DNA from: Salvia splendens
Lineage: Eukaryota; Streptophyta; Magnoliopsida; Lamiales; Lamiaceae
NCBI RefSeq assembly: GCF_004379255.2
Contig: NC_056043.1
Span: forward strand, 1,612,001 to 1,676,000
DNA length: 64,000 nucleotides
Direction of reading: 5' to 3'
Under the pieces are notes generated by a model. The model was not told the origin of the DNA. It saw only the letters and a program-made list of their open reading frames with translations, and ran no database searches. Of the stretch, positions 10,649 to 49,267 are shown in pieces; positions within the stretch are counted from its first letter, which is position 1; every line of letters begins with the position of its first letter. A program made the position numbers and the translations under genes.

Positions 10649-10694
10649 CCCCACACTCACTCAATTTCCTCATCACAATCACAAATAATCATCA

Positions 10695-26815: not shown

Positions 26816-26872
26816 TTTTTTGGGGTGGAAAAAGGGTCAAAAATTCGCTTTATCACAAATTTGGTTCTTCGT

Positions 26873-26890: not shown

Positions 26891-26891
26891 G

Positions 26892-27581
26892 TGATGAGTC
26901 GGCGAATTTTTGATGGTGATGAATGCTCGTAAAAATAAAGGAAGATCAACACACAGAGATTTACGTGGTTCGATTTACTGAGGTAAATCTACGTCCACGG
27001 GAAGAAAAGAGGGCAGAGTTGTACTGCTTGATCTGTTTTCTACAGCTAACAATACAGACTTGCTATTTGCTATTTTCTCTCTAGAGAGCTTAACAGAAGT
27101 TAACAGAAGGAGATTATCTATCTGACCTAGGTTCTATTTATACATTGAACCAAGATCGTGGCATGCAGCATTTATTAGGTAGTGGATGTCGTGGAGGTCG
27201 TGGCGACCTTGCATGGGTCCACTATCCTGCATGAGTTAATGACTGCTTGACACCACTAAATAGATCGTCGGTGTTGCGGAGGTGGAAATCTTGCATGAGT
27301 CCACTATTTCCTAGTTCGGTCGAATACTGAGACCGGACTGCTGAATTATTGCCGAGCAGCTTTTGCCGATCTGAGAGTAGAGCTTGATGCCGACCAGAGA
27401 GCAGAGTTTGATTGGTTGGCTTTTACCGAGCTGTAGGCTGGGGCCGAACTCTGTGGTTGTGCCGAACTGAACTCTTGAGTCATGCCGGACTGATACTCTT
27501 TAGCCATGCCGAACTGATACTCTTTCTTGGGCTTTACTGCTGTTGGGCTTGTTTAGTATTTGTTTAGTACGTACTCCATCA
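26892..27581 (-). repeat. LTR, right copy (5' LTR of the element)
   Basis: 690 bp, same length and termini as the left copy. It holds the element's promoter on the minus strand. Confidence 0.97.
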
Positions 27582-27586
27582 CCCTG
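27582..27586. repeat. Target site duplication CCCTG, right copy
   Basis: Identical to 19998-20002. Host gene sequence resumes here. Confidence 0.95.
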
Positions 27587-27991: not shown

Positions 27992-28197
27992 CCACCACCC
28001 GACCCAACATTTTACATGGTTAGGGAGTAAGTTAGAGCACCCACAACCGTGCTCTTGCCAGCGAGCACGGTTGTGCCCGACCCCATTTTTTCTGCCACCA
28101 CCCGACCCAACATTTTACATGGTTAGGGAGTAAGTTAGAGCACCCACAACCGTGCTCTTGCCAGCGAGCACGGTTGTGCCCGACCCCATTTTTTCTG
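27992..28197. repeat. 103-bp tandem duplication spanning the left end of the PIF/Harbinger element
   Basis: Two adjacent copies, 27992-28094 and 28095-28197, nearly identical. Each contains flanking DNA (CCACCACCCGACCCAACATT), the TTA target site and the element terminus GAGCACCCACAACCGTG. So the duplication copied host flank plus transposon end. Confidence 0.93.
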
Positions 28198-30873: not shown

Positions 30874-31089
30874 ATGTTGTGCACTAAATTCTTCTTGCTT
30901 CTCCTATTGTTGTCCGCAGTGACATTAAGTTATGGAGCTCGTCAAGGGATTAGCACGACCGAATCTTTTCGAGCAATTTTCGATAGAAAGATGTTATTCA
31001 AGGGAGATCAGGGTGACTCGAGCTTGGATGGTCGGTACAAGCCTCGTCGGTATAGTCCCGGAGGACCCGATCCTTACCATCACCTTTGA
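30874..31089 (+). CDS. CLE signalling-peptide precursor, single domain (71 aa)
   Basis: Secreted precursor of a CLV3/ESR-related (CLE) peptide, the 12-residue ligands of plant receptor kinases. Signal peptide at 1-21 (MLCTKFFLLLLLLSAVTLSY), a variable middle, and a CLE motif at residues 59-70, RYSPGGPDPYHH, one residue from the C-terminus. Compared with the usual RxVPxGPxPxHH, position 3 is Ser instead of Val and position 10 is Tyr. The start at 30874 was chosen because it gives a clean signal peptide and sits downstream of the TATA box. The 3' part of this gene, with about 1.3 kb of downstream DNA, is duplicated at 34261. Receptor and function are unknown. Confidence 0.85.
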   Translation: MLCTKFFLLLLLLSAVTLSYGARQGISTTESFRAIFDRKMLFKGDQGDSSLDGRYKPRRYSPGGPDPYHHL

Positions 31090-32421
31090 GTCTTCTTCGA
31101 ATCACACTTACTTTTTGAATAATTTTTATTTTTATTTTGGTTATGTTAGTGTTGAATTTAACTAAAAATTCCTCATAGAGCTGAAGATATGCATGTGTTG
31201 AACTTTTCTAAGGCATTACTAATATTATGCCTGTCTACAGATTAAAGTACAAACCAATTTTAAAGTGGTTTTCATCTGATTTTGGATGTTGTATTTGGCA
31301 TCTTTGTGATTGCCTCATTTTATTTGAATTAGTTTTAGGAAAAGCTTTGTTGGTGAAGTGAGTGAATTCATGATCAAAATGTGGATGAATAGTATCTTAC
31401 ATAGTTACATAAGCATCGTTTTGGTTTAGTCAATATTGTTTTGTTTTGAATGATTGTATTATCTCAAAAATGATCAGTATGTTGTTAATTTTATAAATTA
31501 ATTAATATCAAAGCTCAGCGTTTTTTTTAGTTTCTACAACTTTAAATAAATGGTTAAAAGCAAACTAAGTTTTGTTTTTTTAAGTTGTTTATAAAATTAA
31601 TAATGTGAATAATAATTTTGAAATATTATAATTAAACTCAATGTATAAAACAAAAGAAATATTACTCTAAATGTGTATTATACGAGATTGATGCTCGCGA
31701 ATGAAGCCAAAATAATAATATACATATTAAAGCTAACATTTTTCTCTTTATACTATTTAACTTGTTGAAAAGGAACGTAATACTAAAAAGAAATATGAAT
31801 TTGAGGGTAAACGTAGATAATGTAAAACTCATCGATACTAAATCACAATAAACCATGAAGTTTGGTCAAATTCTGATTAATTCCACAACTTTAAAAAATA
31901 GCTAATTATATCATAACTTTAACATTTTTCTAAACTGTCTCATTTATTTGTGTTTGAAGTAAATTGTGTACGACGTGGAAGCCCAAATCTATGTTTTATT
32001 GATTATCAAATTTGTATTTCACTCACGAAAGTTATTGATTTTTTTATGAAAAATATAGAATATACCAATATAGAATACATCCAGTCATCCAGGAATATTA
32101 TGCTAAAGTATTATGGCTTCCAAATCATACATAAATTCCCCTCAAATCTAAATCAATAGTGATAATTGAGAAAAATGTCAAATATATGATATAAGTGGCA
32201 AATTTTTAAGTTAGCCGGATTAACTAAAATTTGCCTTTTAAGATAGCTGGATTAACTAAAATTTGCCATAACTCTATAAATTTTATGGCGATTAGCCTTT
32301 TAGTTTTGTTAGAAGAATTACACTTATACTGCATATCCTTTTTAATTTACCTTCCTGTAATAAATTTGTAATAATCTCTCATAGAGAAATAAAATAAAAT
32401 AAAATATTTGCCGTCTCCTCC

Positions 32422-32429
32422 TATAAAAG
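32422..32429 (+). promoter_or_regulatory. TATA box of the truncated CLE copy
   Basis: TATAAAAG 43 bp before the ATG at 32465, duplicated exactly at 32715. Confidence 0.75.
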
Positions 32430-32464
32430 CTTCACATGCACCTCTTGGTTTTATAACAACAAAA

Positions 32465-32638
32465 ATGGCTCATTCCTTAGCTAAATTACTATTTTCATTC
32501 TTGATTGTACTTTGTGCATCTCAGGTGATACTCTCACGCCCGATGAATAGCCGCGAACTTTTTCATGAACTAGGGTTCGATGCTACCCTAGACGAATTCT
32601 TTTTCGAGAATTACACTTATACTGCATATCCTTTTTAA
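32465..32638 (+). CDS. Truncated CLE-gene copy: signal peptide without CLE motif (57 aa)
   Basis: Reads MAHSLAKLLFSFLIVLCASQ, then the conserved SRELFHELGFDATLDEF, then leaves homology at the duplication junction and stops at 32638 after FFENYTYTAYPF. It has a promoter and signal peptide but no CLE dodecapeptide. It could be a nonfunctional by-product, or its promoter could drive transcription into the complete gene 120 bp downstream. I used the ATG at 32465; the upstream frame has no ATG. Confidence 0.6.
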   Translation: MAHSLAKLLFSFLIVLCASQVILSRPMNSRELFHELGFDATLDEFFFENYTYTAYPF

Positions 32639-32714
32639 TTTACCTTCCTGTAATAAATTTGTAATAATCTCTCATAGAGAAATAAAATAAAATAAAATAT
32701 TTGCCGTCTCCTCC

Positions 32715-32722
32715 TATAAAAG
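32715..32722 (+). promoter_or_regulatory. TATA box of the four-domain CLE gene
   Basis: TATAAAAG in the context CTCCTATAAAAGCTTCACAT, 43 bp before the ATG. The same context precedes the five-domain gene. Confidence 0.8.
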
Positions 32723-32757
32723 CTTCACATGCACCTCTTGGTTTTATAACAACAAAA

Positions 32758-33279
32758 ATGGCTCATTCCTTAGCTAAATTACTATTTTCATTCTTGATTG
32801 TACTTTGTGCATCTCAGGTGATACTCTCACGCCCGTTGAATAGCCGCGAACTTTTTCATGAACTAGGGTTCGATGCTACCCTAGACGAATTCCACCTCAA
32901 AAGTGATGTAGGTTCGACATTTGTTATTGTGCCCAGTGGACCAGATCCTATACATCATGGTAATACTCCTGTGTCATCCAAAGTGAGCGGGGATGCTTCA
33001 TTGGTGAGGTTGTCACGCAATATTGATGTAGGTTCGTCGTTTATTACCGTGCCCGCTGGACCAGATCCTATACATAACCCTCCCGTATCATCCAAAGTCA
33101 ATATTGATGAAGGTTCGTCGCTTAGAAAAGTGCCTGGTGGACTGGATCCTTTACATAACGGTGTTGCTCCTCCCGTTTCACCCAAAGTCAATATTGATGT
33201 AGGTTCGTCGCTTAGAACAGTGCCTGGTGGACCGAATCCTTTACATAACGGTGCTGCTCCTCCGGTTACATCCAAATGA
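32758..33279 (+). CDS. Multi-domain CLE prepropeptide, four CLE motifs (173 aa)
   Basis: Signal peptide at about 1-24 (AKLLFSFLIVLCASQVILS), conserved leader SRELFHELGFDATLDEF, then four CLE motifs: 56-67 VIVPSGPDPIHH, 96-107 ITVPAGPDPIHN, 123-134 RKVPGGLDPLHN and 153-164 RTVPGGPNPLHN. The spacers contain repeated GDASLVRLSRNIDVGSS or KVNIDVGSS segments. Motifs 1 and 2 lack the usual first Arg. Motif 3 has Leu in place of the Pro that is hydroxylated and glycosylated in CLV3-type peptides. If all motifs are released, one transcript would give four different peptides. Start ATG at 32758; no ATG exists further upstream in frame. Function unknown. Confidence 0.88.
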   Translation: MAHSLAKLLFSFLIVLCASQVILSRPLNSRELFHELGFDATLDEFHLKSDVGSTFVIVPSGPDPIHHGNTPVSSKVSGDASLVRLSRNIDVGSSFITVPAGPDPIHNPPVSSKVNIDEGSSLRKVPGGLDPLHNGVAPPVSPKVNIDVGSSLRTVPGGPNPLHNGAAPPVTSK

Positions 33280-33562
33280 CATGGGGATGCTTCTTTGTGG
33301 GTATCTCGCGCAAGCTAGAACAATCCTCTTCATGAAAGATAATGTATGAATAAGGCAATATAGTTGCTAAATCTCCTTTTGAATGTCTATGTATCATTAG
33401 TTTGAAATTTAACATTTATCAAGTGAATTTTATGAGTTGATTAGAAACTAAAACATATATTGAGAAAATATCATTACCATTAAAACCACCTCATTACTTC
33501 TTTATAATATACTCTTATTGTTTTGGGACATTTAATTCAATTTGACACATTTTTGCAAAAGA

Positions 33563-33825
33563 CTCCTTCCGTCCCATAAAAATATGGACAATTGATACAG
33601 CATGAGAATTAAGACAAAATTAGTAAAGTAAAAGAAAGAGGGAGAAGAGTGGTGTTAATGGATAGTGAGATCCACATTATTAGAAGTGTTTAATAGTGGT
33701 ATAAGTTGTAAATAAGTTGATGGATATAGATAATAAATTTGGATAACTTTCCAAAAATGGAATGCACATATTTTTATGGGACAGACGAAAATGGAAAGTG
33801 CACATATTTTTATGGGACGGAGGGA
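33563..33825. mobile_element. Stowaway-like MITE downstream of the four-domain CLE gene
   Basis: CTCCTTCCGTCCCATAAAAA at the left and its complement near ATTTTTATGGGACGGAGGGA at the right, about 260 bp apart. No coding capacity. Confidence 0.8.
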
Positions 33826-34260
33826 ATAGAAATATTATTATTTTATTTTTTTTAATCTGCTTAACTAACAAAATAAAACTATACTCCTATATGGATTCTA
33901 TAAATGTACAAGGTTTTGATTATCACAAGTCGACTTAATCATGTAAATCACATTTAATTTTTTTTTAAAACTTCTTTTGTTTCTATCACTTGTTATGCTA
34001 TTTAGAAATATAGACCATGCCAAATTGCTAATGGATTCTGCAAATGTGCGAGATTGATTATTACATGTTGAGATAATCATGTAAATCACATTTTCTGTAA
34101 AATCGCCTTCTGTTTTTTAGCTCTTGTTGCTATTTAGAAATATGAGGAATTAACGGTTGTGAAATACTCCATCACAAATGGTTATATATATACATATTAA
34201 GTGTATAGTAACAATTATCAACATATTAAGGAAATAATTTGAGGGTGTCACCATATTTAG
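33826..34260. other. Spacer with an internal direct repeat
   Basis: A block with ATGGATTCTRYAAATGT, GATTATYACA and ATAATCATGTAAATCACATT occurs at about 33890 and again at about 34030, and a diverged copy follows the five-domain CLE gene near 36570. No gene. Confidence 0.6.
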
Positions 34261-34347
34261 GGCGATCAGGGTGACACGAGCTTGGATGGTCGGTACAAGC
34301 CTCGTCGGTATAGTCCCGGAGGACCCGATCCTCACCATCACCTTTGA
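34261..34347 (+). pseudogene. CLE 3' fragment with intact dodecapeptide, no signal peptide
   Basis: 28 codons homologous to the end of the CLE gene at 30874, including RYSPGGPDPHHH and the stop at 34345-34347. The in-frame codon just before is TAG and there is no ATG, signal peptide or promoter homology: the duplicated unit B begins inside the coding region. The motif has changed from PYHH to PHHH. It would be expressed only if spliced to an unseen upstream exon. Confidence 0.75.
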
Positions 34348-34964
34348 GTCTTTTGTGAATCACACTTATTTTTTTACTAGTTGAATAAGTTTTTCTTCTT
34401 TTTTTGTTATGTAAGTGTTGAATTTAACTTAAAATTCCTCATAGAATTGAAAGTGTGTTGAACTTTTATTAGGCATTACTAATATGCCTGTCTACAAACC
34501 AATTCTAAAGTAGTTTTAATTTTGAATTTTGTATTTGACATCTTTGTGATTGTCCCATTTTATTTGAATTAAGTTTTAGGAAAAGCTTTGTTGGTGAAGT
34601 GAGTGAATTCATGATCAAAATGTGGATGAATTATATCTTACATAGTTACCTATATATATATGCATTATTTATAAGCATCGTTTTGGTTTAGTCAATATTG
34701 TTTTGTTTTGGATGATTCTATTATCTCAAAAATTATCAGTGATGTTATTAATTTTATAAATTAATTAATATCAAAGCTAAATTTTATTTTTGATTCTACA
34801 ACTTTAAATAAATGGTTAAAAGCAAACTAAGTTTTGATTTTTTAAGTTGTTTATAAAATTAATAATGCGAACAATAATTTTATAATATTATAAGTAAACC
34901 CAATATTAAAAAATATTACTCTAAATGTGGGTTATACGAGATTGATGCTCGCGATTGAAGCCGA

Positions 34965-35024
<60 letters not shown>
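34965..35024. repeat. (AAT)n microsatellite
   Basis: About 20 units of ATA/AAT in unit B; the matching place in unit A (near 31711) has a short imperfect run. Confidence 0.95.
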
Positions 35025-35025
<1 letters not shown>

Positions 35026-35651
35026 TATATTAAAGCTAGCAATTTTCTCTTTATTATAAATTTTTTAATTATTCAACTTGTTGAAATGGAACATAATACT
35101 AAAAGGAAATAGGAATTTGAGGGTGAACGTAGATAATGTAAAACTCATCGATACTAAATCACAATAAACCTTGAAATTTGGTCAAATTCTGAATAATCCT
35201 GCTACTTTAAAATTGTCTCATTTATTTATGTTTGAAGGAAATTGTGTACGACATGGAAGCCCAAATCTATGTTTTATTAATTATCGAATTTGTATATCAC
35301 TCACGAAAGTTACATATTTTTTTATGAAAAATATAGAATATAGCAATATAGAACATAGCCAGGATTATGCTAAAGTATTATGGCTTCCAAATCATACATA
35401 ATTTCTCTCAAATCTAAATTAATAGGATAATTCAGAAAAATGTCAATCATATGATATAATTGGCAAACTTTTAAGTTAGCTGGATTAACTAAAATTTTCC
35501 ATAACATCATAATTTTATGGTAATTTGCCTTTTAATTTCGATAGAAGAATTACATTTATACTGTTAATCCTTTTTTTTATATATGTTCTTGTAATTATTT
35601 TGTAATAATCTCTCATAAAGAAATAAAAATAAAATATTTGCCATCTCCTCC

Positions 35652-35659
35652 TATAAAAG
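35652..35659 (+). promoter_or_regulatory. TATA box of the five-domain CLE gene
   Basis: TATAAAAG 43 bp before the ATG, in the same CTCCTATAAAAGCTTCACAT context as the four-domain gene. Confidence 0.8.
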
Positions 35660-35694
35660 CTTCACATGCACCTCTTTATTTTATAACAACAAGA

Positions 35695-36387
35695 ATGGCT
35701 CAGTCCTTAGCTCAATTACTATATTCATGCTTGATTGTACTTTGTGCATCTCGGGTGATACTCTCGCGCCCGTTGAATAGCCGTGAACTTTTTCATGAAC
35801 TAGGGTTCGATGCTACCCAAGACGAATTCCACCTCAAAAATGATGTAGGTTCGTCGTTTAGAAAAGTGCCCAGTGGACCGGATCCTATACATCATGGTGA
35901 TACGCCCGTATCATCAAAAGTGAATGGGGATGCTTCATTGGTGAGGTTATCACGCAATATTGATGTAGGTTCGTCGTTTATTACTGTGCCCAGTGGACCA
36001 GATCCTATACATAATCCTCCCGTATCATCCAAAGTGAGCGGGGATGCTTCATTGGTGGGGTTATCGCGCAATATTGATGTAGATTCATCATTTGTAGAAG
36101 TGCCCCGTGGATCGGATCCTATACATAATCCTCCCGCACCATCCAAAGTGAGTGGGGATGCTTCATTGGTGCGGTTATCACGCAATATTGATGTTGATTC
36201 ATCATTTGTAGGAGTGCCCCGTGGATCGGATCCTATACATAACCCTCGCGCACCATCCAAAGTGAGGGGAGATGCTTCGTTGGTGGGTTTCTCGCTCAAT
36301 ATTGATGTAGGTTCATCGTTTAGAAAAGTGCCTGGTGGACCGGATCCTTTACATAATGGTGCTGCTCCTCCCGTTACGTCCAAATGA
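35695..36387 (+). CDS. Multi-domain CLE prepropeptide, five CLE motifs (230 aa)
   Basis: Signal peptide at about 1-24 (AQLLYSCLIVLCASRVILS), leader SRELFHELGFDATQDEF, then motifs at 56-67 RKVPSGPDPIHH, 96-107 ITVPSGPDPIHN, 134-145 VEVPRGSDPIHN, 172-183 VGVPRGSDPIHN and 210-221 RKVPGGPDPLHN. Motifs 2 to 5 are spaced exactly 38 residues apart, each preceded by GDASLVxxSxNIDVxSSF, so the array grew by tandem duplication of a 114-bp unit. Motifs 3 and 4 have Arg at position 5 and Ser in place of Pro at position 7. Motifs 1 and 5 are canonical. Multi-CLE precursors are known in a few plants and in cyst nematodes but are uncommon. Processing and receptors are unknown. Confidence 0.9.
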   Translation: MAQSLAQLLYSCLIVLCASRVILSRPLNSRELFHELGFDATQDEFHLKNDVGSSFRKVPSGPDPIHHGDTPVSSKVNGDASLVRLSRNIDVGSSFITVPSGPDPIHNPPVSSKVSGDASLVGLSRNIDVDSSFVEVPRGSDPIHNPPAPSKVSGDASLVRLSRNIDVDSSFVGVPRGSDPIHNPRAPSKVRGDASLVGFSLNIDVGSSFRKVPGGPDPLHNGAAPPVTSK

Positions 36388-36490
36388 CACGGGGATGCTT
36401 CTTTGCGGGTTTCTCGCGCAAGCTAGAACAATCCTCTTCATGAAAGATTATGTATCAATAAGGCAATATAGTTGCTAAATCTCCTTTGAA

Positions 36491-37154
36491 TGTTTTATGT
36501 ATCACTAGTTATTTAAAATCTCTATGTTTTTAGCTCTTGTCATTGCTATTTAGAGCCAAAAATCAAGCTAATGGATTATGCAAATTTACAAGATCGATTA
36601 TTACGTGTCAAGATAATCATGTTTTGAAGGAAAAATGGTAAGTGGGCCTAATGTTGGGCATAAGATGGTAATACTAAAATATCGTTAACATGGTCTGATC
36701 TAAGGTGTCATTCAAGTTCCAACGCATGTCGTCAATTTTATTTGGATATGTTTTTGTCAATGACAATTAACAAAAATTAACTATTTTTAAAACAATTAGT
36801 TTTTAGCCTACGTGTATCAATAATCACAAGTCGTTAATGATTGAAGATTTGAAAATTGTGATACAATTATTTTGAACTGATAATTTTTATAATGTTGTTG
36901 TAATAACTGCCATATAATCTTCGAAAATATAAAAATACTTTAATTTTAGTAGTTGTAATACTATCAAATCATGTAAATTTGCATTTCGACGGCGCAAGAA
37001 TGGCTCCTTCCTGCCAAATTGAAATTGAAATTGAAATCATAGTGAAAGTGTATATTGAAAGTGTATATTGAAAGTGAAATTTCAATAATTTATTATTTAA
37101 AAATCATAGTAAAAGTATTGTTTCGAGTGGTGTTATTAGTTACCGTTGTTATTA
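36491..37154. other. AT-rich spacer
   Basis: Contains a diverged copy of the repeat described at 33826-34260 (about 36520-36630). No gene seen. Confidence 0.5.
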
Positions 37155-37541
37155 GATATTGGCATCTAATATCATAAAATTTTCAAAAAGTTGACGTTTT
37201 TTCCATGAACTTTAAAATTGGCAAATAATATCACGAACATTACCCCTGGTTTGTTTTTTTCCCACGAATGAAAAAATTCTTACAAATAATATTATGATAC
37301 AGATTTGTTTTCGTAATTTCTCGACAATAATTTTGAGAGCTTCAAGTTTTTCAATCTATAAAGATAGTTTTTCTTGAAGCACACCCTCAAAAAGTTCTTC
37401 AATCTATTAAAATAACATGAATTTTTTCATTCGTGGGAAAAAATAAATTTGGGGTAAAGTTCGTGATATTATTTGCCAATTTTAAAGTTCATGGGAAAAA
37501 TCCAACTTTTTGAAAGTTTCATGATATTAGATGCTAATATC
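37155..37541. mobile_element. Fold-back MITE with about 115-bp inverted arms
   Basis: The left arm includes GCATCTAATATCATAAAA, TTCAAAAAGTTG and ATGAACTTTAAAATTGGCAA; the right arm is its close complement through TTGCCAATTTTAAAGTTCAT to TAGATGCTAATATCCC. The loop is 37275-37420. No coding capacity. It sits about 170 bp before the PPR start codon. Confidence 0.85.
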
Positions 37542-37709
37542 CCATTTAAAAAAGCATTTCATAATAAAATTTGTTAACACACAAGTGCATAGAAAGGAAT
37601 AGTATCGCAGTAATTGACCAAAACGCAGCCGTTTGATACAGCAGAGGATCCAAACGCAGTCGTTTAACATCGATATTCTTGATTACCCAATGTTTCAAGA
37701 ATCGAAGGA

Positions 37710-40022
37710 ATGAGAAAAATTGCATCCTTCTCCCCCAAATCCAATTCTCTCTCCACAGTGAAAAACAATTCAAATTCTCACACGCAGAAGCTTCTTTTCT
37801 CAGCCAGCTCTAATGCACAATACATCAAACACCATAGCTACATTGGCCTGCTCCACGACCCCTCGAGAATCGCTACGCTCAACGATGCGAAGCGCCTCCA
37901 CGGACTCTCCATCACCCTGGGATCCTTCCCGACGCAGGAGCCCGTCTTCCTCCACAACAACCTCATCGCGAGGTATGCTGCACTGGGGGATTTTTCCATG
38001 GCACGCAAGCTGTTCGATGAAATGCCGCAGAGAAACGCAGTGAGTTATAATTCCATGATTAGTTGCTATGTTCGGCAAGGGCTTATGCTGGAGGCTTTTG
38101 GGATCTTTTCTCAGATGAGAAACCGCGGTTTTCAGCCGACGGAATTTACGTTCGGAGGCTTGCTATCGTGTCGTTGGATGGATGTTTTCGAAGGAATGCA
38201 GCTGCAGGGATTGATTGAAAAGAGTGGATTGTTTTGCATTGACGCTTTTGCTGGAACTGCGTTGCTGGGAATGTACGCGAGGCACGGTTGCTTCGATGAA
38301 GCTCTTGGGATTTTCGAATTCATGCCGATAAAGAACTCAGCTTCATGGAATACTTTGATATCTGTTCTTGGCCAGATGGGGTGTGTAAAAGATTGCATTT
38401 TGATGTTTTCTGAGATGCTAATGAGTGGAATTCGAGTGTCTGAGTCGACTTTCGTTACTATTCTATCAAATTTGCAAGAGATGGATATGGATTTAGGGGA
38501 GCAAATGCACGGTTTAGTGATAAAGCATGGATTTGACAATGTAGCCTCTGTTTACAATTGCCTGATTCATATGTATGTGAAGTCCGGCGCCTCATTCTTG
38601 GCTGAGAAAGTGTTCGAGACTGCTCCTGCAAAAGATGTAGTCTCGTGGAACACGATAATTGGCGCCATGGCGAATGGTGATAAGCCGACAAGAGCACTCT
38701 GTACCTTCCAAAAAATGAGCGCCACCGGTCTTGCTCCGAACGATTCAACACTTGTCAACGTGCTCCAGTCTTGCTCAAGACTGCGCCTTTTGTCGCGTGG
38801 AGAATGCATCCATGCTGAGATGATCAAGAAGAGTTTCGAATGCGATGTGGTATGTGGGAGTGCTTTGGTTAGCTTTTATGCCAAGTGTGATAAAGTGGAA
38901 GAAGCACATTCTTGTTTTGATGCCATAACTCAGAAAAATTTGGTTTCTTGGAATTCTTTGATGTTGGGGTACTCGAACAGGGGCTCTTCGTTTACAACGA
39001 AGATTCTCCGAGACATGATCCATTCGGGTTCTTACCCGAATGGAACGTCTTTCTCTATCGCTATTAAATCAGCAATGACGAGAGAGTTGCCACAGCTGCA
39101 TTCTCTAGCAACCAAAATGGGCTACAACGACGTTGCTCATGTGTCGAGCTCTCTTATACACTCTTATGCGCTAAATGGCCTAATATCCGATGCTCTGCGA
39201 TTTGCAGAGTCTGGTGATTGTAACACAAGGCTTCCTGTTGTTCCGTCAAATGTTATTGCGTGGATTTATAACCGGACCGGGCAGTACGAGAAAACTCAGG
39301 AGTTGTATGTTGAGGTGGAGAATCCTGACACTGTTTCCTGGAACATTCTGATTGCTGCTTGCTCTCGCAATGGCTATTATGCAGAAACATTCGACCTCTT
39401 TAATCACATGCTTAGATCCCAAGCGTTCCCGGACAATTACACCTTCGTTAGCCTCTTCAGTGTTTGCACCAGGCTCTGCAACCTTGCTCTAGGCAGCTCC
39501 CTTCACGGTCTGATTGTGAAGGTGGATTTTAGTCTGTGCGACACGTTCGTCTGCAACACGATGATTGACATGTACGGGAAGTGTGGGAGCATTGGGAGCT
39601 CGGTCAAGATCTTCAATGAGATGAAGGGGGAGAAGAATGTTTTCTCGTGGACAGCTCTTGTCTCGGCCCTAGGGCTGCACGGGTATGCAAACGAGGCTCT
39701 GGAGAGGTTCGGGGAGATGGAGGGATTGGGGATCAAGCCGGATAAGGTTGCTTTCTTGGCGGTGCTCTCTGCTTGTAGGCATACGGGATTGGTGAAGGAG
39801 GGGATGGATCTGTTTGAGCAAATGGGAGTGAAGTATGGCGTGGAACCGGACGTTGATCACTATCTTGTCGTTGTCGACTTGTTGACAAGATACGGGCATA
39901 TAAAGGACGCTGAGCGGCTCATCTTGGGAATGCCTATCGCGCCTAATGCGATGATTTGGCGTAGTTTCCTCGAGGGCTGCAAGAGACGAAGCGCGGCAGG
40001 AGAGCTTGCTCTTGCAGTATAA
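37710..40022 (+). CDS. PLS-class pentatricopeptide repeat protein (770 aa)
   Basis: RNA-binding organelle protein; PPR proteins of this class act in mitochondrial or plastid RNA editing, splicing or stability. Single exon, as usual for the family. An N-terminal Ser/Lys-rich stretch (about 1-35) fits an organelle-targeting peptide. Repeats run from about residue 75 to the end, with typical units such as NNLIARYAALGDFSMARKLF, VSYNSMISCYVRQGL, VSWNTIIGAMANGDKP, NTMIDMYGKCGSIGSSVKIF and FSWTALVSALGLHGYANEAL, and PDVDHYLVVVDLLTRYGHIK near the end. It stops shortly after MIWRSFLEGC, where an E motif would begin, so there is no E+ or DYW domain and no editing deaminase. It lies within the CLE cluster but is unrelated to it. 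Confidence 0.93.
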   Translation: MRKIASFSPKSNSLSTVKNNSNSHTQKLLFSASSNAQYIKHHSYIGLLHDPSRIATLNDAKRLHGLSITLGSFPTQEPVFLHNNLIARYAALGDFSMARKLFDEMPQRNAVSYNSMISCYVRQGLMLEAFGIFSQMRNRGFQPTEFTFGGLLSCRWMDVFEGMQLQGLIEKSGLFCIDAFAGTALLGMYARHGCFDEALGIFEFMPIKNSASWNTLISVLGQMGCVKDCILMFSEMLMSGIRVSESTFVTILSNLQEMDMDLGEQMHGLVIKHGFDNVASVYNCLIHMYVKSGASFLAEKVFETAPAKDVVSWNTIIGAMANGDKPTRALCTFQKMSATGLAPNDSTLVNVLQSCSRLRLLSRGECIHAEMIKKSFECDVVCGSALVSFYAKCDKVEEAHSCFDAITQKNLVSWNSLMLGYSNRGSSFTTKILRDMIHSGSYPNGTSFSIAIKSAMTRELPQLHSLATKMGYNDVAHVSSSLIHSYALNGLISDALRFAESGDCNTRLPVVPSNVIAWIYNRTGQYEKTQELYVEVENPDTVSWNILIAACSRNGYYAETFDLFNHMLRSQAFPDNYTFVSLFSVCTRLCNLALGSSLHGLIVKVDFSLCDTFVCNTMIDMYGKCGSIGSSVKIFNEMKGEKNVFSWTALVSALGLHGYANEALERFGEMEGLGIKPDKVAFLAVLSACRHTGLVKEGMDLFEQMGVKYGVEPDVDHYLVVVDLLTRYGHIKDAERLILGMPIAPNAMIWRSFLEGCKRRSAAGELALAV

Positions 40023-40216
40023 ACATTAGTTTGGGAAATTTGGATTGTATATATAGTAGTAGGAGTAGTATACATTTATGTTCTTTATTTACATTTATAC
40101 TCTTTCTGCTTATGATCCAAACTAATATTTGTGGATTATAATTTGGGAAGTTCAAAGTTTAAACACATTCATTATTCATAAGTTAGTTTGAATTCTAGTA
40201 GTGTATATATGTAGTA

Positions 40217-40450
40217 CTCCCTCCGTTACACCATAAGCGAGACACTTTATTTTTTTGCACTCGTTTTTGAAAAATAATGTCAAGTATAGAGATAGCATAA
40301 TGTAGATGAGACTCTTCTTGACAATATTCTCTCTCTAACTTTACATTCTCTCTACTTTTTTTTCTCTCTACTTTTACTATTTTATACTCCTATTATTTTT
40401 ACAAAACGAGTGCAAAAATGAATCATCTCGCTTATGTGGGACGGAGGGAG
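40217..40450. mobile_element. Stowaway-like MITE 3' of the PPR gene
   Basis: CTCCCTCCGTTACACCATAA at the left and its complement pattern CTTATGTGGGACGGAGGGAG at the right, with internal TTGCACTCG and CGAGTGCAA arms. TA precedes the left end; the right flank (TT) is not a clean TA. Confidence 0.82.
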
Positions 40451-40700
40451 TTTATTTTTGTAAAGCTAGTTGACCTTGAATTTGCATTGATTACATTTAT
40501 AAGTATATTTTATTTTTTGGCAAATTGTTGAAAAAATACAAAGTTTGATCAAATTGTATTCAATGCCCAAGGACGGAGGGAGTTTATTTCAGTAAAGCTA
40601 GTTGACCTTGAATTTGCATTGATTACATTTATATTTTTTATTTTTTGGCAAATTGTTGAAAAAACGCAAAGTTTGATCAAATTCTAGTTAATGCCGTAAC
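40439..40700. repeat. 132-bp tandem duplication including a MITE terminus
   Basis: GGACGGAGGGAGTTTATTT, then GTAAAGCTAGTTGACCTTGA and TTTGGCAAATTGTTGAAAAA, recurs at an offset of 132 bp (40439 and 40571). The duplicated block begins with the last bases of the Stowaway-like MITE. Confidence 0.9.
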
Positions 40701-41166
40701 TTCAAAAAATGTTAATCATGATTTTGTCATTTTTTAAAAATTGTCTCATTCATACGTATTTGGAGGAAATTGTGTTTGGCATGAAGCCGAAACCCATGAT
40801 CTTTTTGCAAATTTATATATCACTCATAAGACCAATTGGTTTTAATATGAAAAATATAAAAAAAATTTAGATTAGACTTAAGTTTTTGGCTTCCAAAGCA
40901 CACATAATTTCCCCTCGAATCTAAATCAATAGTACAATTGAAAAAATGTCAAACGTAATAATATAATACTATTAACTAAGTATTCTTTAAAGTTGTGGGA
41001 ATGATCAAAATTAATGATTTTTTCCTTTTATTTTTAGAAGAATTTCATTTATACTGGATATCCTTTTTTATATATCTTTTTCTTGTAATAAATTTGTTAT
41101 AATCTCATCTTCAACATGTTATATAAAGAGGTTTCACCCACACCTCTTGGTTTTATAATTGTAAGA
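40701..41166. other. 5' flank of the two-domain CLE gene
   Basis: Resembles the 5' flanks of the 32465 and 35695 genes (ATCATACATAA/CACACATAAT and CAAATCTAAATCAATAG blocks), so the promoter was duplicated with the gene. A TATA box, TATAAAGA, lies at 41122-41129. The ATG at 41116 overlaps that box and was not used. Confidence 0.65.
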
Positions 41167-41493
41167 ATGGACCCTTCCTTAGTTAAATTACTAATTTCAT
41201 GCTTGATTGTACTTTGTGCATCTTCGATGATCCTCTCACGACCGTGGAATAGTCGAGAACTTTTTCATGATATGGGGTTTGATGTTGCCCTAGACGAATT
41301 CAGCCTCAAGAATGACATAGGTTCGTCGTTACAACATACTGTGCCCAGTGGACCGTATCATCTTAACCATGGTGTTACTCCAGTATCATCTAAAGTGAAC
41401 GAGGATGCTTCATTGAGAGGTGTATCGCGCAATACTGGTGTAGGTTCGTTGCTTAGGCCTGCACCTAGTGGTCCAGATCCTCTACATCATTAG
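41167..41493 (+). CDS. CLE prepropeptide with two CLE motifs (108 aa)
   Basis: Signal peptide at about 1-24 (VKLLISCLIVLCASSMILS), conserved leader SRELFHDMGFDVALDEF, then motif 57-68 HTVPSGPYHLNH, which is degenerate in its second half, and motif 97-108 RPAPSGPDPLHH at the very C-terminus, with Ala in place of Val at position 3. It is clearly paralogous to the 32758 and 35695 genes. The TATA box lies 45 bp upstream. Only the second motif looks likely to yield a canonical peptide. Confidence 0.82.
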   Translation: MDPSLVKLLISCLIVLCASSMILSRPWNSRELFHDMGFDVALDEFSLKNDIGSSLQHTVPSGPYHLNHGVTPVSSKVNEDASLRGVSRNTGVGSLLRPAPSGPDPLHH

Positions 41494-43038
41494 GTAATGT
41501 TTGATCTAAGATGGTCATCCAAGTAGCAACTATCTTTAATTATATTTGGATGTGTTGTTAACAATGACAATTAATAAAAGTCAACATCAAACTCTTGCTC
41601 AAGTTAAACTATTTTTAAGAATATCAGTTTTTAGTCATAGGTAGCTGAATGTTAAGATGTCTAGAATCACAAATAGTGAATATTTGAAGATTTCAAAATT
41701 GTGATATGTAATAAAATAGACTAAAGTCCAAAATTTGTCATTTACATTTGTTCGAAAAATGTTTTTGGTCATACATAATAAGTGTCATGGCTTCTGATCC
41801 TAAACAATTCTGTCAAAAAAAATTAACAGCCAACAATATTTTAAGCATATTAGTAACTTAACTATATTGCATCTAAATTAAAAATTATAAGGAGAAGAAA
41901 GTCCTTTAATATTTTTATCTTTAATATATGTGTTTTGTCAAATATAAGTATTTCTTAACTCTTATAATTAGAATATTATTTAGCTCACAGATTTGGTCAA
42001 AATATTGTTGACCGCCAACTTTTAGATAAAACCGTTGAATATGGACTAAAACATATCGTTTAGGATACATAGTATTGCATTTTGTGTAGGACAATTTTTT
42101 TTCTGGCAAATGTAGAGAACCAATTTTAAATTTTAGTCTATAATATATTTTTGTGATCAAATCAACTAGTTTTGTAAATTTTTGTTCTATAATTAATTTA
42201 TGCGTGTATAGTTTCTTAAAGAATTGTTTTGAAGAATAAATTTAAGTATGTTGTTAATTGTTATAGTAACTGTCATATAATCTTAAAAAACCTAAGTATT
42301 TTAATTTTAATATTGTAATATTATCAAAACATGTGCATTTGATTTATTGTCAGATCTATTAATGTTACTATTATTTGTTCTATATCTAAACTATTATTGT
42401 GTACATATATAATTATAATAATTTATAATAAAATCATTATTTATCTCAAATAATTTACTCAAAGCAAGTAAAATTAAAACAAATTAAAATTTCGTACATC
42501 ACACGGGTGTAACTTGAATTGTAGCATTGTAATATAATCTAGTGATCAAATGAGTCATATACCTTCAAATTTTGAAAGTCCTTAAAATAATCCCCTTTTT
42601 TAATAATAATAATGATAATATAATAATGATAATATAATAATAATAACAACTATTGTTACAATAATAATATATGGCACAAAATATTTTGACAATAGCATGG
42701 ACGGTTATTAATAATATACTATAACAAAGGGTTATTATGTTTCTCTACAATGATAAATTGTGGAATTTGCATCATTTTTTAGTTTGTGGGATCTACCATC
42801 TTTGGCCAAATATTTGTGATTTTATGGAATAATACCCCTTACTCTTACATCGATCTATACATTAATTATTATAAAAGAATTACATTTACATTGGATGTCC
42901 TTTATTAATTCACGAGATTACCTTGTTTTAAAAATTGTACTAATCTTTCATTAAGAAATAAAAATGAAATAAAGGCAATCTCCTCATCAACATGTTATAT
43001 ATATGGGTTTGACACCTCTTGGTTTTATAACTGCAAGC
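41494..43038. other. AT-rich spacer within the CLE cluster
   Basis: No gene. 42600-42680 is a low-complexity ATA/ATG stretch. From about 42880 the sequence again resembles the CLE 5' flanks (AGAATTACATTTACATTGGAT, TTATATATATGGG). Confidence 0.55.
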
Positions 43039-43383
43039 ATGGCTCCTTCCTTTGTAGCTAAATCACTATTTTCATGCTTGACTGTACTTTGTGCATCTCC
43101 GGTGATCCTCTCGCGCTCGTTGAATAGCCGAGAACTTTTTCAATAATTAGGGTTTGGTGCTGCCCTAGACGAATTCCACATCAAAAATAACGTAGGTTCG
43201 TCGTTTAGAAAGGTGCCAAGTGGACCTGATCATTAACATATTGGTGTTACTCTCGTATCATCCAAAGTGAGCGGGGATGATTCATTGGTGGGGTTCTCGC
43301 ACCATATTGATGCAAGTTCGTCGTTTAGAAAGGTGCCCCGTGGAGCGGGTCCTCGACATAATGGTGTTCCTACAACATCCTAA
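43039..43383 (+). pseudogene. CLE multi-domain pseudogene with two in-frame stops
   Basis: ATG GCT CCT TCC onward reads through a CLE-paralogue signal peptide (LFSCLTVLCASPVILS) and leader, with TAA at 43144-43146 in place of the His codon of SRELFHELGF. A second TAA falls inside the first CLE motif (KVPSGPDH, then stop). The second motif is decayed to RKVPRGAGPRHN. The frame otherwise stays in register to TAA 43381-43383, so these are point mutations without frameshifts. Confidence 0.88.
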
Positions 43384-45214
43384 TGGCATGGATGCTAAGC
43401 TAGAAGAAATAATATGGGTTGGTCGTTTAGGAATGAGCCTGGTTGTTCATGTATAATGAATTTGAAATATACATAGGACTTAGGAGTATTTATTAAGTGA
43501 ATGTTATTGCATGATTACAAACCTAAACATATCTTAAGAAAATACCATTAAAACTACTTAATTACTTGTCTATAATATACTAGTTCAATTGCACTCATAA
43601 AGACATTTTTTTGGGGATATGTGACTCAAATCGACACATTTCCTATAATAAAAATTTCGGCTAATAATTTTCGACATGACATGAAAAAGCATGACGTTAA
43701 ATGGTAACTATCAAATCTTATTGTGATCGTGTTCTTTTTGGATTGATTCGACAAGGACACGATAATTTCGAGGTGGGTTCAGGCGGATTTGGGTTCGACC
43801 CTCATAGGCTGTAGGATCGTGAACCCTAGACTTCACCTGAATTTGACATTACTAATAATTTTGGATTGTCATTTGCTTCTACTATTGAAAAAGGAAACAT
43901 GACATAGTAATATGGAATTGCATTTGATTGGATTATTGTATATCACTATTGCTTCAGCGGAATAACTATTTCATTTAAACCAACAACCCACTACTATGTT
44001 ATAGCTACTTCTTGATGTGTCATATTCATATATATTCAACATCAGAAAATTCATTTCAAATTGCAATTGGCCTCTTTTATTTGAAATAACAAAATACTCT
44101 AATGAGTTCAACTACCTTTTAGGTTTATTTATTTTGGGATCATGAAAATTAAACTAGCCACTTTTTGGAATGAAATTCAAAATATATAGTAGAAGTACTA
44201 AATAATTTAATAATTATATATACCAGTGCCTCCAAGTACCTTTCAGGTTTATTTATTTGTGGTAATTAAAAATAAACTAGCCATTTTTTATTTTATAAAA
44301 ATTTATACTATAATTTAAAGATTTAGGCCATCTTGAATATATCCCTATTTATTACTCCATTTGTCTATGTTGTTTTATAAATTTTATTTACACGCAATAT
44401 TAACTAAAAGCGTTACATTGCGAGCGACCCACTCTTATACACTGATAGAAATTCATTAGGTTTTGTTTTTAAAAAAATCAACAATGAAAAAAATAATTTA
44501 TAATACTTATAAATACTAATTTCACTTTTCTTTTTATACATAACACCTTCCATGATAAACTAGCAAAATAATTTATGATTCTTCTCCAAATTTTCCACTT
44601 ATTATATATGGTGTCGAAATTCGAGTGGTTAAATTAATTTTAAATTTTGAGTTGAACAAAGTGGCATGTCAATTTTTCTTTCAACTTAATTATATATGTC
44701 TCATTTAATTAAAATAATAATAGAAATATGATTAGTTATACGAGTCAAATTCAAATTGGGTCCTTTTCTTAAGCAATGAAATCTCTAATTAATTATATAT
44801 ACAATTTTAAGTGCAAGTTCAACCACTATTAAAGCAACTTAGTAACTTTAAATTTAGAGATAATGTTACAACAACTACAAGATTTATGAAAATGATATTT
44901 GGCCTTGGCTCATTCCGGCAGTGGATCGTTTATGAAAGTTTTCACTATTTTAAATTTTTAATAGAATTAAAAAAATTTGCAAAATATTTTCTCTGTTGCA
45001 CTCAATATGAACCGTATTCACTAAATAGGCACATTTTCGCGACGAAAAAAGCGTCAATCATAAGTTTGCGACTGTTCCGAAGACTCTGCGACGGAATTAG
45101 AGACGGACATTTCCGTCGCAAAACAAAACATTATATATTCATTTTTTTTATAAAATTAGCTCCTATATAAAGGAGAAAATTACAAATAAACTCATATACT
45201 ATAGATATGAGGAA
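43384..45214. other. Intergenic; transposon remnant near 45020-45125
   Basis: AT-rich, with no gene recognised. 45020-45125 (TTTTCGCGACGAAAAAAGCG to GACATTTCCGTCGCAAAAC) looks like the end of a plant DNA transposon but a partner terminus was not found. Confidence 0.45.
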
Positions 45215-45300
45215 ATTAAAACAAATATCAAGAGGGCTCAAACTCAGCACCTCATGCAATAATGTCTAAGCTCCTTGCCGTTAGGACAAAGGCTCTGGAG
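45215..45300 (-). repeat. Possible tRNA-derived SINE head
   Basis: On the minus strand, TCCTAACGGCAAGGAGCTTA (A-box-like) is followed after about 30 bases by GAGTTTGAGCCCT, close to the B-box GGTTCGANYCC. Spacing and order fit a pol III internal promoter of a tRNA-derived SINE. The B box is imperfect and the element tail was not delimited. Confidence 0.35.
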
Positions 45301-45624
45301 ACATTATATATTCATATTGGACACATTATATATTCATATTAAATTATAAGATAGTGTAAGTATAATCATGATCCAATTTAAAGCAATTGCACTTGTGTAA
45401 ATCTCCATTTCTGCGGTGGAACTTATCGTTTCTTTGACAATATCATACTAGAAACAGAGAACTAAGTAATTATAATTAATGGTCGAGTCAAATTGATGTA
45501 ACATAGAGACAATTATCCAAAGCTCATAATTCTTACTAATATTGAAGTCATAAATAAAATTTTGAAACAAATGTCACATTCTATCCACTTTGCTCGGTCC
45601 CTATTTTCCTCTTATACTCTATTC
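45301..45624. other. 5' flank of the CLE gene at 45718
   Basis: AT-rich; a short direct repeat (ACATTATATATTCATATT) at 45300-45340. Nothing else seen. Confidence 0.5.
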
Positions 45625-45632
45625 TATAAATA
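45625..45632 (+). promoter_or_regulatory. TATA box of the CLE gene at 45718
   Basis: TATAAATA in CTATTCTATAAATACCCAT, 93 bp before the ATG. Confidence 0.7.
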
Positions 45633-45717
45633 CCCATGCAATAAATAGATACATGCAATAGTATTTATTTGACTCCATTTTTCTTGGGCTTTATCATCTC
45701 CATTTGTCAATTAATTA

Positions 45718-45987
45718 ATGGCTTATTCAAGAGTTGTGTACTTGTCCCTCTTCTTCCTCCTCTTCCTCTCGTTATTGACCGGAGAGGCGGCGGGTGTGGT
45801 CCCAGCCAACCTCAAGAGGCAACATTTCGGGAGGAAATTGGGGCTCACTGGAGCTGAATTAGAGTATTATTACCGAAAAAGATCACTCGAGACGGGTTAT
45901 GATGATAGAGTTGTTCCCGGTGGCCCTGATCCTCATCATCACTATTCCGTGCCACCTATGAGCGTCACACAAGATCCTTTATTATAA
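45718..45987 (+). CDS. CLE signalling-peptide precursor, single domain with C-terminal extension (89 aa)
   Basis: Signal peptide at about 1-25 (VVYLSLFFLLFLSLLTGEAA), a variable middle rich in Arg/Lys, and a CLE motif at residues 64-75, RVVPGGPDPHHH, followed by a 14-residue tail. The motif is close to the CLV3-type consensus. It lacks the SRELFHELGF leader of the multi-domain genes and is more like the gene at 30874 in build (PGGPDPxHH). Probably an older member of the cluster. The C-terminal tail must be trimmed if the peptide is released. Confidence 0.88.
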   Translation: MAYSRVVYLSLFFLLFLSLLTGEAAGVVPANLKRQHFGRKLGLTGAELEYYYRKRSLETGYDDRVVPGGPDPHHHYSVPPMSVTQDPLL

Positions 45988-47267: not shown

Positions 47268-49267
47268 ATGTTGGGGGATGGGAATGAGGGATCGGAGGAG
47301 GATAAATTGGGGGAGCGTAAGGTTTACAGTAGAACGCCGTCGTTTAAAGGGCTTGAAAACAGTCACAGCAGTAGTAATTTGTTGATGGAGCAGCAGCAGC
47401 AGCTGAAGTCTCAAGCTATGGCCTCAGATGGCTTGAATTCTATGAGAAGAATGCATGATTCTGGTGTTGGTGTGGGCCGTGATGGCTTTGTTGGGATAAA
47501 TTTGTCTACGAAGTCGAAGCGTGATGCTCTGGAGCTGAGGAGGAAGCTGGAGAGCGAGAGGGATAAGGTGCGGAGCTTGATGAGGAGGATTGAGTCGCTA
47601 AAGAATGGAGTTCAGGGATTTGGTGGTAGAGATCGGGATTACGTAGCTGCGGGATTGGGGACGCCTCGGACGTTGAAGCCATTGAATCCATTGAGTGTGG
47701 TTGTGAATGAGAATGGCCAGCCGGGAAATGATACTGTTGAGAAGGAGAAAAGGACGCCAAAGGCAAGTAAATTATATGGAAATACCGAGTTTTTGCTTGC
47801 GAAGGACAAGATTCCGCCCGGTGAAAGTAACAAGAAATTGAAGGCGAACGGGAAGAAGGGAGGAGGAAGTGGGGCGGGGATGGAGTATTTTCCCAATCAT
47901 GTTTTCAAGAGCTGTAACGCGCTCTTAGAAAGATTGATGAAGCACAAGCATGCTTGGGTGTTTAACAAGCCGGTTGATGCAGTTGCTCTTGGTTTGCATG
48001 ACTATTTCGAGATTATTAGAAACCCTATGGACCTCGGTACTGTGAAAGGCAGGTTAACTCAGAATTGGTACAAGTCCCCTATGGAGTTTGCTGAGGATGT
48101 CGTGCTTACGTTTCAGAATGCTATGACATACAATCCGAAAGGGCAAGATGTTTATGTGATGGCTGAACAGCTGTGCAAATTATTCGAGGATAAATGGGCT
48201 CCCATAGAGGCTGGTTATAAACGTGAGATGAATCTAGCTGCGGAATATGATGTGGGGCCACCAACGCCTACATCTCGGAAGGCTCCTCAGCAGCCAAGGG
48301 AGCGGCCTGATATGGAAAAGCCTTTAGATAGATCGGCAATGGCCTACTCGGGTGATCCAAAAAGAAAGAAACCAAGTAGCGCACAGTCTGGCAAGGTTCA
48401 TGCGCCAAAGAAGCCAAAGGCAAAGGATCCGAATAAAAGGGAGATGACATATGATGAAAAACAGAAACTTAGTGTAAACTTACAGGAGTTGCCTTCGGAG
48501 AAGCTAGAAAATGTTGTTCATATCATTAAGAAGAGGAATCCGCCTGTTTCCCAGCAAGACGATGAGATTGAGGTTGACATTGACAGTGTTGATACTGAAA
48601 CTCTTTGGGAGCTTGATCGGTTCATCGCAAATTATAAGAAGAATTTGAGCAAGAACAAAAGAAAGGCTGAAATTGTCAGTAATTTAGTAGCTGGTCAGGA
48701 GCAGATCCCCAACGATATGGTAATTAATTTGCTTTACTTACTATCTCAATTTGTATTAGTTTAGAGCATTAGAGTGTTTATTGATGCATTTCATTTTTGT
48801 GTTTTTTTCGGCAGGTTGCTACCTCTGTTGTAACGGAAATGCCAATACCAAGTAGAACAGGTAAAGATTTTATCGAGTAAACTAGAAGTTTCGAATGATG
48901 CAAAAAAAAAAAGATTAACGTGATCATTTTGTCTACTCTTTTTCTTGAGCAGATGAAGAGAAAATCGCCTCACCTCCTGCTGAAGTAGAAGTGTCGGACA
49001 TAGAGCACTGTGACAAGAACCAAGGAGCCAGCCAAAACAGCTCTAGCTCTGATTCGGGATCTTCTTCCAGTGGTAGTAATTAAAAATTATTTCCTGTTGT
49101 TTCTAAAACAGCTCTTTTGCATGTTGTAGCGCATTAAATGCACATTTATTGGATACGTTACTTGAAAGTCATGCATGTCCTCTTACTAATCCTATATTTT
49201 CGTAGATTCTGAAGGAGAAACTTCCTCAGCAGATGGCTCTGATGGCAAACGCTCACCTGAGAATTGA
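47268..49267 (+). CDS. GTE-type bromodomain and NET-domain transcription regulator (559 aa)
   Basis: Binds acetylated histones through one bromodomain; plant GTE (BET-like) proteins act as transcription co-regulators in the nucleus. Exons 47268-48719, 48815-48860, 48953-49072 and 49206-49267 join in frame at GT-AG sites. Order: Gln-rich and basic N-terminus with a short coiled coil (KRDALELRRKLESERDKVRS), bromodomain at about residues 210-315 (CNALLERLMKHKHAWVFNKP, DYFEIIRNPMDLGTVKGRL, AMTYNPKGQDVYVMAEQLCK, with the acetyl-lysine-binding Asn in TYNP), NET domain at about 390-465 (MTYDEKQKLSVNLQELPSEK, EIEVDIDSVDTETLWELDRF), and an acidic Ser-rich tail from the last exons. The ATG at 47268 is preferred over 47202 because the extra 22 residues are Cys/Trp-rich and unlike the family. 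Closest in build to GTE2/GTE7 types. Confidence 0.92.

Follow-up and report, generated by a model that had tools for sequence, protein, structure and literature searches.

Whether one plant transcript can supply several different CLE peptide ligands, or whether arrays of CLE motifs in one reading frame are the remnants of decaying genes, is the question raised by a cluster of loci in a 64,000-nucleotide stretch of Salvia splendens DNA (NCBI RefSeq assembly GCF_004379255.2, contig NC_056043.1, positions 1,612,001 to 1,676,000 of the forward strand). This whole stretch is termed the window, and window coordinates are used below. An earlier note, made from the sequence alone, had described eight CLE-related loci on one strand within 15 kb. 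All eight were located by inspection of the sequence, each on the + strand at the position reported. Three of them (A, B and C) are open multi-CLE precursors, two are open single-CLE genes, and the rest is debris consisting of a signal-peptide stub, a CLE fragment and a pseudogene with two stops. The likely interpretation is that this is a tandem CLE locus that predates the two latest genome duplications and in which A, B and C encode secreted multi-CLE prepropeptides.

30874..31089, + strand: single-CLE gene, 71 aa, with signal peptide and C-terminal RRYSPGGPDPYHHL
32314..32606, + strand: upstream copy of a 293-bp direct duplication, with promoter, signal peptide and leader of A
32465..32638, + strand: signal-peptide-only open reading frame (ORF), 57 aa, a by-product of the 293-bp duplication
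32758..33279, + strand: gene A, multi-CLE precursor, 173 aa, with 4 motifs at residues 56, 96, 123 and 153
32923..33249, + strand: motif array of A (32923-32958, 33043-33078, 33124-33159, 33214-33249)
34259..34347, + strand: 3′ fragment of a single-CLE gene, without start or signal peptide (the ORF fragment previously noted at 34261)
35695..36387, + strand: gene B, multi-CLE precursor, 230 aa, with 5 motifs at residues 56, 96, 134, 172 and 210
35860..36357, + strand: motif array of B (35860-35895, 35980-36015, 36094-36129, 36208-36243, 36322-36357)
41167..41493, + strand: gene C, multi-CLE precursor, 108 aa from the later ATG, with 2 motifs
43039..43383, + strand: pseudogene D of the same family, with 2 in-frame TAA codons (43144, 43234)
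45718..45987, + strand: single-CLE gene, 89 aa, with RVVPGGPDPHHHYS plus a C-terminal extension

The abundance of CLE motifs in the window is far beyond chance. A motif scan detected 15 CLE-like motifs on the + strand and none on the - strand, and assigned four to A, five to B and two to C, as had been proposed. A strict CLE pattern matched 12 times in the window compared with no matches in each of 60 first-order Markov shuffles, and a loose pattern matched 14 times, where the shuffles averaged 0.17 matches and never exceeded 2. The motifs of A are VIVPSGPDPIHH, ITVPAGPDPIHN, RKVPGGLDPLHN and RTVPGGPNPLHN, and those of B are RKVPSGPDPIHH, ITVPSGPDPIHN, VEVPRGSDPIHN, VGVPRGSDPIHN and RKVPGGPDPLHN. 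Gene C has HTVPSGPYHLNH as its first, degenerate motif, and its second, RPAPSGPDPLHH, stops exactly at the stop codon. Pseudogene D retains two degenerate CLE motifs. Earlier in-frame ATG codons exist for the 30874 gene (at 30811) and for C (at 41116), and the later ATG was used for both because the signal peptide begins there.

The precursors possess the layout expected of CLE genes. A, B and C carry two to five CLE dodecapeptide units, 15-28 residues apart, in one open frame. Motif starts are spaced by 40, 38, 38 and 38 aa in B and by 40, 27 and 30 aa in A, with the last motif positioned 9 aa before the end in A and B, and at the end in C. By the hydropathy measure alone, six of six ORFs have a hydrophobic stretch at residues 7-20, and their N-termini reach best 10-residue Kyte-Doolittle means of 2.7-3.3. 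The leader SRPLNSRELFHELGFDA is common to A and B. All nine units in A and B keep P4, G6, P9 and H11, whereas P9 and H11 are lacking in the first unit of C. Read as unspliced frames, the CLE ORFs of the window, single- and multi-CLE alike, comprise 71-230 aa with 0-2 cysteines. Plant-style TATA boxes had been presented as a shared feature of the loci, and TATA-like boxes are indeed present at all seven that bear an ATG (at -41 to -49 in six and at -93 for 45718), but their positions say little.

If A, B and C are secreted as predicted, plant proteases would excise the dodecapeptides after secretion, and these would be modified as other CLE peptides are and would bind receptor kinases of the CLV1/BAM type. 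A single transcript could in this way yield several, partly different ligands. The units differ in both A and B, which agrees with the earlier suggestion of several distinct potential ligands per precursor. Copies would have been gained through tandem duplication and changes in unit number and lost through stops and deletion, with the neighboring single-CLE gene at 45718 being stably kept. Judged against published dodecapeptides (PMC5538625), RKVPSGPDPIHH and RKVPGGPDPLHN resemble CLE25 (RKVPNGPDPIHN) and CLE26 (RKVPRGPDPIHN), and the VPRGSDPIHN units resemble CLE26 and CLE45 (RRVRRGSDPIHN). BAM3 is the CLE45 receptor and the protophloem is the main site of root-active CLE action (PMC5538625). 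Because of this likeness to CLE45-type peptides that act via BAM3 and the protophloem, a vascular or root role for the cluster peptides is a reasonable guess but nothing firmer.

The age of the locus was approached by comparison of the contig that carries the cluster (C12) with paralogous regions on contigs C11, C7 and C8. The following neighboring genes are relevant.

37710..40022, + strand: PPR protein gene between B and C (Pfam PPR)
47268..48764, + strand: bromodomain/BET gene, used as synteny anchor (Pfam Bromodomain and BET)

Copies of the bromodomain gene are present on C11 (94% identity) and on C7 and C8 (84% each), the latter two with one and two stops, respectively, inside the matched frame. 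Open copies of the single-CLE gene at 45718 are located near these bromodomain copies on C11 (91%), C7 (61%) and C8 (55%). On the far side of the 45718 copy are multi-CLE loci on C8 (33,013,477-33,014,616) and C7 (35,467,131-35,468,461), past which lie tandem gene copies related to window 10509-11011 and 19515-20004. The four markers are in the same order on C12, C7 and C8, with the C7 and C8 stretches between the bromodomain gene and the multi-CLE loci largely unread. Of the two copies on C8, one is broken and the other is an open two-motif gene of 127 aa counted from its ATG. The C7 copies comprise a frame-shifted one and one whose frame lacks a signal peptide. The S. splendens assembly consists of 807 Mb in 22 pseudochromosomes, and duplications are placed at synonymous divergence (Ks) values of ~0.08 and 0.26 (PMC8408255). 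From the identities observed, C11 would derive from the younger of these events, and C7/C8 from the older. The genome search also uncovered further family members on C16 and C13, and the genome-wide list, which derives from single-protein searches, is a lower bound. The 30874 gene matched only the 34259 fragment elsewhere in the genome, and the PPR gene had no second copy at E≤1e-100 among the best 58 of 1325 candidates. Separately, the tandem copies at 10509-11011 and 19515-20004 specify a HDNKENIPPF / PLRDVTNFY-like protein. The deposited model P0008 (SASPL_121689, C7), which contains HDNKENIPPF-like sequence and has no Pfam match at E≤0.01, appears to join this neighbor gene to parts of two damaged multi-CLE copies, and probably is an annotation artefact.

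Relatives of the precursors occur in other plants. Protein database matches numbered five (E≤0.01), at least seven (E≤0.01, among the matches listed) and 33 (E≤0.1), and included S. splendens SASPL_124309 (P0004, contig C8). The same layout was recognized in Salvia divinorum P0001 (142 aa, three motif-like units), in Sesamum alatum P0003, P0010, P0012 and P0013, and in P0002, P0007, P0009 and P0011; S. alatum P0015 and P0016 are partial and have neighboring locus tags. The S. divinorum protein has its best overall score to B (69% identity), its N-terminal part scores best against C, and its C-terminus stops at the stop codon as does that of C. A precomputed assignment to family PF27922 exists for relatives that include P0005, P0009, P0012 and P0013. 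The S. alatum proteins (Salat_2905500, Salat_2529600/2529700 and Salat_0215200/0215300/0215600, with Salat_0215600 and Salat_2529700 partial) resemble the Salvia precursors in signal peptide, leader and GSSFR-x-VP-x-GPDP-x-H-H/N units, and adjoining locus tags on a single contig point to a tandem arrangement like that of the Salvia cluster. However, the S. alatum units are more alike within the species (REVPGGPDPRHH) than are the Salvia units, and arginine occupies position 1 (Arg1) in all ten scored units of four S. alatum proteins. Averaged over 18-residue cores, unit identity was 0.61 in S. splendens, 0.76 in Sesamum and 0.60 between the two. The comparison is rough, as the first unit of C is one residue longer and S. 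divinorum unit 1 was cropped out of register. Among 20 relatives counted of 36 retrieved, 17 have at least two filter-passing motifs, including those of Lonicera, Oldenlandia, Melia, Rubus, Hibiscus, Rhamnella, Pisum (as Lathyrus oleraceus), Zingiber and Magnolia. A Sarracenia precursor with a single motif (P0020) has a comparable leader, SHDLSHELGFD, which suggests that the arrays may have grown inside a single-CLE ancestor.

These comparisons bear on the origin of the cluster. The proposal of a lineage-specific expansion was not supported in the form given: similar leaders and units are present in Sesamum, which belongs to another family of the Lamiales, and the position is common to two older Salvia paralogous regions. 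A young Salvia-only expansion was rejected on account of the Sesamum relatives and the shared position on C7 and C8. Conservation of the frames in close relatives, whose lack the earlier note would have counted against it, was not contradicted: relatives have open frames with this layout, at the protein level only. The assignment of the loci as plant CLE genes also was sustained. Derivation from plant-parasitic nematodes, against which that note had already argued, has in its favor a general multi-domain likeness to nematode CLE effectors, nothing more, and is exceedingly improbable: the neighbors are plant genes in an order common to C12, C7 and C8, and every relative with a species name is a plant (in one search, among the matches listed). 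A nematode CLE effector was rejected as a candidate as the precursors are encoded amid plant gene order and have plant relatives.

That the array is simply a dying relic, with frames open by chance and no product, is countered by several results. Comparison of A with B over 140 collinear codons gave a ratio of non-synonymous to synonymous divergence (dN/dS) of 0.34 (Fisher p 0.0023), which shows a signal of apparent purifying selection, and the ratio for units 1-2 was 0.27 (p 0.006). Within the three coding blocks of A and B that were picked as collinear, 420 bases align without a gap, compared with 18 gap events over 1105 aligned bases in the noncoding part of the duplication; between the collinear blocks, A and B differ by whole units. 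The frames of A and B therefore persist amid indel-dense flanks. When neutral evolution with indels was simulated, the frames survived with frequencies of 0.024 (A), 0.005 (B) and 0.095 (C). The model was simple, with noncoding rates, half the A/B divergence per lineage, the same rates for C, and two thirds of indels counted as frame-breaking. Frame retention favors function for A and B, with expression a separate matter. Together with the open relatives in other species, these results make a dying relic unlikely.

Several observations weigh against functional multi-CLE precursors. In simulations with substitutions alone, neutral frames stayed open at 0.46 (A), 0.28 (B) and 0.56 (C), and the argument from open frames leans on indels because substitutions alone often spare neutral frames. 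The last unit of A versus B (dN/dS 0.25, p 0.076) is suggestive only, as is the purifying signal between units 3 and 4 of B, which differ by four synonymous and three non-synonymous changes (dN/dS 0.25, p 0.077). The signal peptide and leader of A and B are free of any purifying signal, with a dN/dS of 0.90 over 48 codons (two synonymous and six non-synonymous changes), and of 1.03 over 50 codons in a second computation. Unit pairs in A and B had values >1 in five of 36 cases and were undefined in one (19-codon cores), although the counts behind these values are tiny. Arg1 is missing from five of the nine units in A and B, and C begins its array with a degenerate motif. Five CLE proteins of the window had no Pfam family above cut-off. 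A, B and C themselves were not among the proteins matched in the database searches, and appear to be unannotated there. An intron could remove units in A, B or C, as has been described for MtCLV3 (PMC4526924). The C11 region, which is the closest homeolog and can be aligned over window 1-11011 and again starting at 43614, contains no PPR gene, 30874 gene or multi-CLE loci in 28.5 kb free of runs of N. Its matches to window 11-43 kb are confined to the tandem neighbor gene and three repeat-like pieces (120-135 bases), and whole-genome searches with B and the 30874 gene found no match on C11. Loss of the cluster on C11 is the simplest reading because C7 and C8 have the locus. As C11 is without the block and most C7/C8 copies are damaged, the cluster genes look dispensable. 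A relic would be in keeping with the missing C11 array, the damage to the C7 copies and to one of two C8 copies, the decay of D, the lack of database entries for A and B, and the substitution-only simulations.

Arginine at position 1 is usual in CLE peptides, and departures from it are the oddest trait of the cluster. The nine units of A and B have arginine at this position in four cases, valine in three and isoleucine in two. Across 13 Salvia- and Sesamum-like proteins, one of which yielded no unit, 28 filtered units comprised 22 with Arg1, three with valine, two with isoleucine and one with tryptophan; all five valine or isoleucine units are in A and B. The filter left out degenerate units, among them both units of the C8 gene (each with Arg1) and the first units of C and of P0001. 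Among more distant multi-CLE proteins, residues other than arginine were noted in Sesamum calycinum (K), Oldenlandia (F), Hibiscus (K), Rhamnella (K, twice) and Pisum (S, twice), and Thr, Val, Lys and Leu have been listed at position 1 for a few single-CLE genes of legumes (PMC4526924). Given their occurrence in other multi-CLE proteins, the units without Arg1 may represent tolerated drift. In work on the TDIF-TDR complex the first residue is described as critical for binding specificity, the CLE peptides compared there having His or Arg (PMC5383425). It is a long shot that one precursor co-releases Arg1 agonists of the CLE25/26 type with Val1/Ile1 variants that act on other receptors or compete with the Arg1 agonists. 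Such variants would keep the C-terminal anchor DPIHN or DPIHH while their N-terminal anchor is altered, and the array would in that case have the proportions of a ligand mixture built into it. His1 follows an extra residue in the first unit of C and of the S. divinorum relative, a possible third peptide class that is a lead only.

The same variation is pertinent to the alternative that each precursor delivers one working ligand, for example the first (RKVPSGPDPIHH) or last (RKVPGGPDPLHN) unit of B, with the others being spacers or by-products of slippage. The first unit of B matches that of S. alatum P0003 at every one of its 12 residues (16/18 over the wider core), the middle units differ with several lacking Arg1, and the authors of a wheat study surmised likewise for TaCLE26 (PMC6747155). 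However, the middle units of A and B retain P4, G6, D8, P9, H11 and N12, and the low ratio between B units 3 and 4 noted above also runs counter to a spacer role. A single ligand per precursor is a credible, if less probable, alternative to the release of several.

The history of the copies can be read in part from self-comparison. A tandem segmental duplication, 31001-32599 with 34259-35829, has 80% identity counting gaps and carried a single-CLE gene plus a multi-CLE gene. The second copy retains only the single-CLE 3′ end (34259-34347 versus 31001-31089, 86/89 bases identical). The 293-bp duplication took in the promoter of A together with its signal peptide and leader, and so accounts for the signal-peptide-only ORF at 32465; 32314-32599 and 32607-32892 are identical at 285 of 286 bases (99.65%). 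The three debris loci described previously are explained by the 293-bp duplication, the tandem duplication and the two TAA codons in D. C and D are more remote copies with 72-77% DNA identity to A/B over aligned parts. Inside B, units 3 and 4 are most alike, with synonymous (dS) and non-synonymous (dN) divergence of 0.15 and 0.04, respectively, over 38 codons. Signs of youth are confined to the local copies, namely the A/B pair and the 293-bp duplication. The proposed birth and decay of copies is borne out by the duplications, stub, fragment and pseudogene in the window. That the tandem copies are artefacts of assembly collapse or duplication is very unlikely: the near-identity of the 293-bp copies could be so explained, but A and B differ by about 6-12% over compared blocks, runs of N are absent from the window and the C11 stretch, and the Sesamum locus tags point to tandem copies there too. 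The 293-bp copy alone is open to doubt as an assembly feature.

Synonymous difference between A and B is uneven: it amounts to only 0.06 in the signal peptide and leader but reaches 0.28 in units 1-2, and the flanks differ by 9-12%. Gene conversion at the 5′ end together with unit exchange within the arrays is possible for 32607-33098 and 35546-36035. The value for units 1-2, despite a flank difference of just 9-12%, suggests unit exchange or mispaired units. Dating of copies by synonymous sites is shaky; the single-CLE gene at 45718 has a dS of 0.24 between C12 and C11 compared with the published peak of 0.08.

Multi-CLE precursors have been described in rice, wheat and Medicago (PMC2254619), with one Medicago case later traced to a missed intron (PMC4526924), and in soybean (PMC4526924), Medicago and Lotus (PMC5570945), wheat (PMC6747155), and radish and Brassica napus (PMC11172632), with functional precedent for the B. 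napus genes as cited in the latter. Studies of tomato found single-CLE genes alone (PMC4195864, PMC9670457). The legume proteins MtCLE14, MtCLE22/26/27, LjCLE32/33/46/47 and GmCLE37a/b resemble the Salvia precursors in having a signal peptide and several CLE domains, 3-9 in the legumes. The domains mostly are regularly spaced, and MtCLE14 is within 9 kb of two other CLE genes, reminiscent of the Salvia clustering (PMC5570945, PMC4526924). The legume repeat unit is 24-35 aa versus 27-40 aa between motif starts in Salvia; the likeness is one of layout. Among grasses, rice CLE75/CLE76, wheat CLE30/31 and TaCLE26 also have several motifs per precursor (PMC2254619, PMC6747155), the rice arrays arise from a single exon (PMC2254619), and the Salvia motifs have near counterparts in wheat, for example RPVPSGPDPIHH (PMC6747155), but the spacers differ. 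A mixture of intact and broken tandem multi-CLE genes is found in Salvia, whereas none is described for grasses in the text consulted. In Brassicaceae, BnCLEm and RsCLEm1/2 have 5-8 tandem domains; BnCLEm3 units are nearly identical, in contrast to the Salvia units which differ, including at position 1.

The Salvia cluster is seemingly an unannotated addition to documented plant multi-CLE precursors. CLE studies in Salvia or Sesamum were absent among the matches listed from a mainly open literature, by which absence from print is not established. Processing of plant multi-CLE precursors is said to be little known (PMC4526924, PMC6747155). The locus offers a contrast within one genome next to the same single-CLE neighbor: three open arrays on C12, one open and one broken on C8, damaged copies on C7 and none found on C11. 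Moreover, units depart from Arg1 while the frames seem constrained. Dispensability, ligand mixing and turnover are directly testable here.

Other elements were observed in the window. A long terminal repeat (LTR) retrotransposon at 19999-27582, with 695-bp terminal repeats that are 99.7% identical and a Pfam gag match, sits inside the second copy of the tandem gene, which has homology on both sides. It probably is a recent insertion, and a simple test revealed no target-site duplication of 4-6 bp. The ORF at 28557-29456 (- strand) has a C-terminal NAM-associated match too weak to pass the Pfam cut-off, resembles four ORFs in the C7 and C13 stretches, and probably is transposon-derived. An exact direct repeat of 106 bp, with a 103-base period, lies at 27992-28200.

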